Shown: positions 24,674 to 25,912 of the stretch, piece by piece
How the letters are laid out: each line of letters starts with the position of its first letter
Numbering within the stretch: the stretch's first letter is position 1
Origin: Caulobacteraceae bacterium
Lineage (GTDB): Bacteria; Pseudomonadota; Alphaproteobacteria; Caulobacterales; Caulobacteraceae
DNA: 37,373 nucleotides
Reading direction: 5' to 3'
Assembly (NCBI GenBank): GCA_947475845.1
Contig: CANJMO010000020.1
Span: forward strand, 1-37,373
Position numbers and translations under genes: made by a program
Notes under the pieces: generated by a model
What the model saw: only the letters and a program-made list of their open reading frames with translations
Told to the model about the DNA's origin: nothing
Database searches by the model: none

Positions 24674-25675
24674 TCAGTTGAGATGCAGCGACAGGATGAT
24701 CGCCACGAACGCAAGGTAGAACGCCGCCATCGACGACAGCCAGGCGCGCGACATCCGCCCGCTCCTGAACCCCATGAACAGCACGATCACCGCCGCCAGG
24801 GTAACGCCCCCCGCCACGATCAGCGATGGATCGAGAATCCAGGGGGTGAAGAACAGGCCGAAGGCGGTAGGGATGGTGGCCTGGATCATCATGGCGCCGG
24901 AGATGTTGGCCAAAGCCAGCTTCACCTTGCCCTGGCGAATCCAGATGATGGCGTTGAGCGTCTCTGGCAATTCGGTGGCGATGGGGGACAGCAGCAGGGC
25001 CAGCAACTGCGGCTTGAGGCCAAGGTGGTGGCCGAGCGCGTCGATCTGGCCGACGAACAGGCGCGAGGCGATGAAGATCACCCCGAGGGCGGCCACGGTC
25101 TGGATCACCGCCAGGCGGGTGGCCGGATGGGCCGAGCGGGGGGCTAGCTTCAGCGGCTCCAGTTCGCCCTCGCTCTCGCCCTGCTCGCCGCGGGTTTCCT
25201 GCCAGACGTAGGCGCCGTAGGCGGCCAGGAACACCACCCCCAGCCACGGCTTGAAAGCAAAGGCGATCAGGCCGGCGGTGAGCTTGAACACGAAGATGGC
25301 CAGGAACCAGCCCTGGTCGCGGCTCAATCCCTTGAAGTCTTCGGCGGCGGTCGCGGTCTTGAGCGGGCGCTTGGCGGCGTAGAGGGTCCAGGCGGCCACG
25401 GCGTAGGCGATGGTGGCCAGGACCAGCGGTCCGCCCAGCGCCGCGCCGACGCCGATCTGTTTTTGGGCGGGCGTGGCGCCGAAGGCCACGGCGACGAAGG
25501 TGATCACGCTTTCGGGCAGGGCGGTGCCGAACGCCGCCAGGATGGTGCCGGTCGCTTTCTGGCCGACCGCGAAACGGTCGCCGATCCACTCGACCCCGTT
25601 CACGAAGAACTCGCAGGCCAGATAGATCAGACCGGCGGAGCCGAGCAGGATCAGGATGGTGAGGTAAAGCGGCAT
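24674..25675 (-). CDS. CaCA-family cation exchanger, probable Mn2+/Ca2+ efflux
   Basis: A 333-residue sodium/calcium exchanger family (YrbG-like) membrane protein with about ten helices. The two alpha-repeats that bind the cation are visible: AAFGTALPESVITF near residues 48-60 and LLLSPIATELPETLNAIIW at about 225-243, each with its Glu-Ser/Thr pair. The family normally moves Ca2+ out against Na+ or H+. The 237-base leader contains a yybP-ykoY-type Mn2+ riboswitch (25800-25880), which points to Mn2+ as a physiological substrate. ATG 25675 is preferred over 25735, which lies inside the leader. Confidence 0.9.
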   Translation of the reverse strand: MPLYLTILILLGSAGLIYLACEFFVNGVEWIGDRFAVGQKATGTILAAFGTALPESVITFVAVAFGATPAQKQIGVGAALGGPLVLATIAYAVAAWTLYAAKRPLKTATAAEDFKGLSRDQGWFLAIFVFKLTAGLIAFAFKPWLGVVFLAAYGAYVWQETRGEQGESEGELEPLKLAPRSAHPATRLAVIQTVAALGVIFIASRLFVGQIDALGHHLGLKPQLLALLLSPIATELPETLNAIIWIRQGKVKLALANISGAMMIQATIPTAFGLFFTPWILDPSLIVAGGVTLAAVIVLFMGFRSGRMSRAWLSSMAAFYLAFVAIILSLHLN

Positions 25676-25799
25676 GGTGGGACTCTTCGGGGGTCGGGCG
25701 GCGGACAGGCCAATGGCGCGGCGCCCCTCGCCCAACCCATCAGGCGGAGGCCGCGACCACTGGTCTCGCCAAACCGGAAACTCCGGCCACCCGCGCCAT

Positions 25800-25880
25800 G
25801 ATCCCGAAAGACCAAGTATGTTGACGCGGGCCCTGCTGAAACGCGCAGGCGGCTACTCCCCAAAGGATGACAGGGTTCTA
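25800..25880 (-). promoter_or_regulatory. yybP-ykoY type Mn2+ riboswitch
   Basis: On the minus strand the leader contains CTTTGGGGAGTAGCC (25865-25851) and CGCGTCAACATACTT (25828-25814), the two most conserved single-stranded blocks of yybP-ykoY Mn2+ riboswitches, in the right order. Between them CCTGC (25849-25845) pairs with GCAGG (25836-25832). It lies about 125 bases before the exchanger ATG. No clear terminator with a T run follows, so control is probably at translation or through another structure. Confidence 0.82.
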
Positions 25881-25912
25881 GCAGCCGTCCGCCGCCGGTC
25901 AACCGGGGCCCG

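Follow-up and report, generated by a model that had tools for sequence, protein, structure and literature searches.

The DNA analysed here, a stretch of 37,373 nucleotides from a member of the Caulobacteraceae (contig CANJMO010000020.1, assembly GCA_947475845.1) which we shall call the window, carries on its minus strand the gene of an exchanger of the CaCA superfamily, placed directly behind a leader of the yybP-ykoY type (Table 1). The match to the Rfam family RF00080 runs from 25877 to 25771 and reaches 62.1 bits in cmscan against a gathering score of 45, with an E value of 3.9e-14 that is expressed for the whole window and all Rfam families. An earlier note, made from the letters of the sequence, had proposed that a riboswitch of this class controls a CaCA gene, had quoted its two consensus blocks, and had called for a search with the covariance model: the blocks are present, and both the class of the riboswitch and the nature of its target are borne out. 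This is a real match, not a chance one, and it is the sole one at E<=0.001 across the 2.65 Mb assembly.

The end of the Rfam match at 25771, considered as the end of the aptamer, is ruled out, as the P1.1 3' strand sits further 3'. Indeed, the 3' half of L1/P1.1 reads GAGACCAGTGG in the window (25767-25757), similar to the GAGACCAGGGAU given for the corresponding half in Xanthomonas oryzae (extract of PMC6754395), and positions 25763-25757 are able to pair with 25866-25860 with a single mismatch, forming P1.1. The hallmarks of RF00080, the L1 and L3 consensus blocks and the P1.1 3' strand, are thus all found in the window. Because the aptamer extends in this way past the end of the match, the expression platform comprises some 81 bases (25756-25676), rather than the 125 bases first proposed. 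On the 5' side, a consensus promoter scan returned 0 promoter-like sites; the motif TTGAC, which begins the putative promoter of Table 1, lies 41 to 42 bases 5' of the GGGG of the aptamer in 9 of 16 leaders of the family.

Two further features of the window deserve mention in their own right. Downstream of the exchanger, an 88-residue reading frame (24556-24290, minus strand) has the appearance of a GapR/DUF2312 protein. At 36786-36714, again on the minus strand, an mmgR/suhB small RNA (RF00519) is recognised at 58.3 bits for a cut-off of 41, and it is accompanied by a run of U.

Table 1. Features of the exchanger locus, with the grounds on which each was placed
Feature	Sequence	Positions	Strand	Basis
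Putative promoter	-35 TTGACC (25902-25897), 16-base spacer, -10 TAGAAC (25880-25875)	25875..25902	-	Inferred from reading the sequence
Mn2+ (yybP-ykoY) aptamer, from P1.1 5' strand to P1.1 3' strand		25757..25866	-	RF00080 and comparison with PMC6754395 (extract)
Conserved block 1 (P1.1 5' strand and L1)	CTTTGGGGAGTAGCC	25851..25865	-	Sequence and RF00080
Conserved block 2 (L3)	CGCGTCAACATACTT	25814..25828	-	Sequence and RF00080
Strand A, P1.1 3' strand and extension	CCAGTGGTCGCGGC	25750..25763	-	Duplex swaps and pair counts
Strand B, 5' arm of crossing helix H	GGGTTGGGCG	25729..25738	-	Duplex swaps and pair counts
Strand A', anti-P1 partner of A	GCCGCGCCATTGG	25710..25722	-	Own-versus-swapped duplex test and pair counts
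Strand B', 3' arm of crossing helix H	CGCCCGACCC	25691..25700	-	Duplex swaps; 99.0% of cells paired
Ribosome-binding-site-like motif, 7 bases before start codon	GAAGAG	25683..25688	-	Read from the sequence
CaCA-superfamily exchanger, 333 aa, predicted Mn2+ exporter		24674..25675	-	ATG at 25675; Pfam, NCBIfam, structural model, alignment

The exchanger and its ion-ligand signature

The protein is recognised by the Pfam model Na_Ca_ex (PF01699) at 99.7 bits for a cut-off of 24.9, in two stretches that correspond to two repeats, and the central glutamates of both alpha repeats (E55 and E238) are conserved in 58 of 58 relatives. The CaCA part of the designation 'YrbG-like exchanger', which had been used in the earlier note, therefore stands. 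The YrbG part does not: the protein scores 25.7 bits, where the cut-off is 432, against PRK10734 (NF008005), which we take to be the model of YrbG, and the ion ligands that E. coli YrbG possesses are missing from it. Orthology with YrbG is ruled out by the NCBIfam scores and the ligand positions together. The score remains likewise low (77 bits for a cut-off of 179.65) with TIGR00367, the model of general calcium/sodium antiporters. An AlphaFold2 model with a mean pLDDT of 87.9 has as its best Foldseek match the H+/Ca2+ exchanger CAX (4kpp; TM 0.78 by query length), followed by NCX_Mj.

The comparison with NCX_Mj was also made at the level of individual positions, which we number according to the alignment made here, and for which we assume a list of ion ligands made of Ser, Asn and Asp residues around the central site. 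T50, E54, T209 and E213 of NCX_Mj are kept in all 58 aligned relatives, while S51, S77, N81, S210 and D240 are replaced in all 58 by A, G, L, E and Q, respectively; at S236 the residue is A in 52 relatives and S in six. At the same five positions eight canonical rows, namely YrbG and seven paralogues of which three are truncated, show S, S, N, S and N, gaps aside. The assignment of D240 depends on a part of the alignment that lies close to a two-residue gap, and the S210E change was built into the best-80 set described below, as the patterns used in the scan include SP[IV]ATELPE. Unbiased checks come from the 20 proteins of the family, which were found without the motif and all match the signature at each of the nine positions that remain once S236 is set aside, and from six of nine plasmid-collection proteins, which carry the same signature motifs.

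Canonical exchangers of the YrbG and NCX type thus share with this clade the CaCA fold, the two alpha repeats and the central Glu and Thr residues, and they differ from it in the ligands around the centre. The tree tells the same story: once the three truncated paralogue reads had been removed, the clade stood apart from the five remaining canonical rows with a support of 100/100. The loss of Na+-type ligands, combined with the gain of an extra glutamate, suggests coupling to H+. On the exchanger tree, the presence of a riboswitch at the Rfam cut-off requires nine changes, so that the riboswitch must have been gained or lost repeatedly.

Riboswitch linkage and the probable exchange of exporters

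We explored a set of 199 genomes of the family, calling exchangers at E<=1e-20. RF00080 is found at E<=0.001 in 155 of them, 121 being above the cut-off. The exchanger is present in 20 genomes, and the riboswitch lies directly upstream in 16 of these; in the other four (G025, G045, G075 and G114) no Rfam family was matched up to an E value of 1 and, as G025 belongs to the window's own genus, it counts against a strict rule that would bind riboswitch and exchanger. No such association is seen beyond the clade among the matches listed: of their 88 CaCA genes, 19 belong to the clade, and none of the 69 others is within 2500 bases of a riboswitch among these matches, one of the 69 (G195) residing in a genome where the place of the riboswitch falls outside them.

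The distribution of UPF0016/GDT1, a family of manganese exporters, is nearly complementary to that of the exchanger. Of the 199 genomes, 135 encode it, with a score over the cut-off in 134, and 117 of the 135 also possess the riboswitch. Nineteen genomes have the exchanger only, 134 have UPF0016 only, 45 have neither, and a single one (G073) has both, with two riboswitches, one before each gene; this near-exclusion corresponds to a Fisher p of 8e-10, a value not corrected for kinship. Both exporter states coexist within the genera g6, g12, g14, g19 and g21, and the swap therefore probably happened several times. Twenty-three genomes display the riboswitch with neither gene; 20 of these loci were sampled, and there it precedes MntP in 19 cases and a CDF protein in one, the Pfam check covering two of the MntP genes and the CDF gene. 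One MntP behind a riboswitch (G154; L148, 842-1412, minus strand) is recognised in two separate segments, as a frameshift or an assembly error would produce. As for the genome of the window, it gave no UPF0016 match and no MntP match, and it encodes one Nramp and two TerC proteins; given the latter two, the exchanger may not be its sole manganese outlet.

The earlier note had restricted its proposal to the lineage at hand, which proves too narrow, since the pairing of riboswitch and exchanger spans Alpha-, Beta- and Gammaproteobacteria. A scan with one genome per species produced at least 549 confirmed relatives, and the best 80 of these were taken on: they come from Pseudomonas, Novosphingobium, Sphingomonas, Luteibacter, Dyella, Rhodanobacter, Massilia, Burkholderia, Clostridium and others, some from the family itself, and some of these loci probably coincide with genomes already in the other set and are not independent. 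RF00080 is upstream at or above the cut-off in 18, 12, 16 and 14 of each 20, that is in 60 of the best 80, and eight more have it at E<=1e-5, which brings the count to 68 of 80. It was not found at E<=1e-5 in the remaining 12, four of which (L071, L073, L086 and L100) are probably identical to L039, L040, L033 and L044, searched without a match. Relatives also occur in nine records of a plasmid collection, where four bear the annotation 'sodium:calcium antiporter'; six were read, and RF00080 is above the cut-off in four, the Streptomyces record reaching only an E value of 0.006 and the Legionella record having no match at E<=0.01.

Several of these loci have peculiarities of their own. In Clostridium carboxidivorans (L126, upstream of 1501), a clade member follows a leader that has an aptamer-like GGGAGTAG and ends in a hairpin with a U-run, with no Rfam match up to an E value of 0.01. 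Three Pseudomonas loci (L057, 730-905; L062 and L064, both 765-939) have a second metal riboswitch back to back with the one for Mn2+: on the opposite strand, some 400 bases upstream of the latter and its exchanger, an M-box for Mg2+ (RF00380) scores over 136 bits. On plasmids of Massilia putida (L166) and Legionella fallonii (L170) the clade members neighbour metal genes, a metal/formaldehyde-sensitive repressor and dmeF in one and a heavy-metal P-type ATPase in the other, with transposase genes upstream.

Crossing helices in the expression platform

Beyond the aptamer, four strands succeed one another in the order A-B-A'-B', and as a consequence the helices A/A' and B/B' cross. Strand A has two alternative partners, the P1.1 5' strand (25866-25860, one mismatch) and A', so that, as is characteristic of RF00080, a strand of P1.1 is common to the aptamer and to a competing downstream helix. 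These pairings were evaluated by swapping strands between 100 non-redundant leaders (76 of exchangers and 24 of UPF0016), with start codons picked by rule, some of which may be wrong, and with the shared ancestry of the leaders left in place. For A/A' the mean energy of own duplexes is -19.05 kcal/mol versus -14.39 for swapped ones, and 0 of 2000 shuffles were as good; for P1.1 the figure is again 0 of 2000 over the 100 leaders, and the 24 UPF0016 leaders taken alone show no advantage of own over swapped pairings (1926/2000). With B/B' the 76 exchanger leaders give -24.26 versus -20.10 and 0/2000, a result also obtained with the 24 UPF0016 leaders and with 18 MntP leaders, whereas 17 of 2000 swaps were as good in the 16 exchanger leaders of the family. 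When 20 exchanger leaders are aligned, 88.5% of cells are paired, against 32-54% when the strands are slid; changes on both sides affect six of 13 pairs in A/A' (80.3% paired) and four of 10 in B/B' (99.0% paired).

Folding of the window leader yields A/A' when left free (MFE -99.0) and B/B' when P1.1 is enforced (MFE -91.2), and the L025 and L045 leaders behave likewise. This suggests that the two helices are mutually exclusive rather than parts of one pseudoknot, a structure that the folding programs used cannot model. The Mn2+ riboswitches of Lactococcus lactis and X. oryzae, as described in extracts of PMC11087558 and PMC6754395, have in common with the window the aptamer class, the P1.1 3' strand and the competition for P1.1; there, however, the competition comes from an intrinsic terminator hairpin, while in the window a second covarying helix crosses A/A', which lacks a U-run. 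Among the papers listed by a narrow search, no title or abstract opening describes a crossing-helix platform for yybP-ykoY, which is slender ground for calling it new.

The earlier note had seen no clear U-run terminator in the leader and had supposed from this that the switch may act by a different mechanism. The observation holds, with 0 terminator-like sites between 24500 and 26450, and the supposition holds in part: the switching step, competition for P1.1, looks canonical, and it is the output that dispenses with an intrinsic terminator in the window. Elsewhere, at least four U follow A' in six of the 76 exchanger leaders, three of them from genus g14, and there A/A' looks like an intrinsic terminator; none of the 24 UPF0016 and none of the 19 MntP leaders has such a run. 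In the window, the segment CCCCGAAG (25692-25685) is able to pair with CTTTGGGG (25865-25858), in the P1.1 5' strand. Own pairings of this kind were matched by 4 of 2000 swaps in the 16 exchanger leaders of the family and by 0 of 2000 in the 100 leaders; they are weak in subsets (162/2000 for UPF0016 alone, 104/2000 for the exchangers of the best-80 set alone). When P1.1 is enforced, opening of the start region increases from 0.33 to 0.60 in the window leader, and among the 16 exchanger leaders of the family it rises in five and falls in nine. A general model in which Mn2+ would free the ribosome-binding site from the CTTTGGGG/CCCCGAAG duplex is accordingly weakened, the swaps being suggestive and the enforced folding inconsistent. 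For the window we lean towards an output through translation start or Rho, not through an intrinsic terminator.

Probable manganese export and its alternatives

Placed together, these features make it highly probable that an ON switch responsive to Mn2+ here precedes a Mn2+ exporter belonging to a distinct clade of the CaCA superfamily. At low Mn2+, the 3' half of P1.1 (strand A) would pair with A' downstream and the exporter would be off. An excess of Mn2+ would stabilise the aptamer, P1.1 would capture A and A' would be released; helix H, formed by B with B', could then appear and the exporter be made. The protein keeps the two Glu and two Thr of the CaCA centre while having lost the Na+-type ligands around it and gained a third Glu, and it would for this reason probably swap Mn2+ for H+. 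Export of Mn2+ is predicted from relatives, an inference that is well supported: it gains strength from the link of this clade, and of no other CaCA gene among those listed, with the riboswitch, from the near-exclusion with UPF0016 in the same genomes, and from the fact that the same riboswitch fronts UPF0016, MntP and CDF genes in sister genomes. It gains further from BP3410 of Bordetella pertussis, a published manganese exporter of the CaCA superfamily under the same riboswitch (extract of PMC8546581).

That a CaCA manganese exporter may be controlled by this riboswitch is indeed already in print. According to the same extract of PMC8546581, BP3410, a calcium:cation antiporter, is induced by manganese through the yybP-ykoY riboswitch behind which it lies, and a functional copy lowers cell manganese about fivefold; like the gene of the window, it encodes a Pfam CaCA protein directly behind RF00080, with NCX_Mj as the closest solved structure by sequence, as for the window protein. 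The likeness is drawn here from the published description; the clade holds relatives from Burkholderiales and from Aeromonas, the Aeromonas caviae relative (L165) displaying both the clade signature and RF00080, and Aeromonas (as A. veronii) is among the BP3410 homologues listed in that extract. A table in a review files BP3410 under 'Ca2+:cation exchanger, YRBG' (extract of PMC9936198), and yrbG is given, from RegPrecise, under a yybP-ykoY riboswitch in Vibrio vulnificus (extract of PMC13274385). UPF0016/GDT1 proteins (MneA, Mnx) resemble the exchanger in having the same riboswitch, the same bacterial family and probably the same job, and differ from it as non-homologous transporters of about 190 residues; in a screen covering 333 strains that possess a UPF0016 gene, this gene was under yybP-ykoY in 328 (extract of PMC7380456). 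What may be new here is the ligand signature extending over the whole clade and the platform with crossing helices.

The exchanger might mainly export Ca2+, or Ca2+ and Mn2+ alike, and respond to Mn2+ since an excess of this ion upsets the handling of calcium. The calcium-antiporter models of Pfam and NCBI do match it, its closest fold is that of CAX, and MgtA of Streptococcus pneumoniae exports both ions under extreme manganese toxicity (extract of PMC9936198), so that Ca2+ could be a substrate or co-substrate. We nevertheless deem this account improbable, as the TIGR00367 score is far under its cut-off, the exchanger alternates with UPF0016 in a family where the same riboswitch also fronts MntP, and the BP3410 analogue under this riboswitch lowers cell manganese (extract of PMC8546581). 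Still less credible, to the point of being very unlikely, is a riboswitch that would be a chance neighbour or a decaying remnant in front of a constitutive exchanger: the exchanger of G025, in the same genus, indeed has no detectable riboswitch, but in the window the aptamer reaches 62.1 bits with both consensus blocks intact, and the linkage recurs in 16 of 20 exchangers of the family and 68 of the best 80 of at least 549 relatives outside it.

A quite different matter is whether a manganese exporter is controlled here by nothing but transcription termination, either at a terminator that lacks a U-run or through Rho loading on the C-rich B' when H is open. This is a serious possibility, against which we lean only slightly. 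The strand 3' of A' is C-rich in the window, A/A' looks like a terminator in the six exchanger leaders with U after A', and mntP of E. coli combines Rho with a riboswitch (extract of PMC11647493); against it stand the absence of terminator-like sites between 24500 and 26450 and the duplexes between the P1.1 5' strand and the start region, with the reservation already made for UPF0016 leaders and for the best-80 exchangers. To return to the Mn2+ switch before a Mn2+ exporter, a broader proposition can be held tentatively, as one just short of evenly balanced. The clade named 'sodium:calcium antiporter' would be a separate H+-coupled and Mn2+-selective branch of the CaCA superfamily (S51A, S77G, N81L, S210E and D240Q in NCX_Mj numbering), the A-B-A'-B' platform of its riboswitch would be common to CaCA, UPF0016 and MntP leaders, and the switch would have been kept while the exporter was swapped several times.

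The locus and its relatives provide a testable correction for many genes now annotated as Na+/Ca2+ antiporters, with at least 549 relatives concerned. They bring out, in a superfamily that has been studied mostly for Ca2+, a sequence signature that may mark Mn2+ selectivity, and they uncover a natural series, in which, in a single bacterial family, one RNA switch stands before exporters of four unrelated families.
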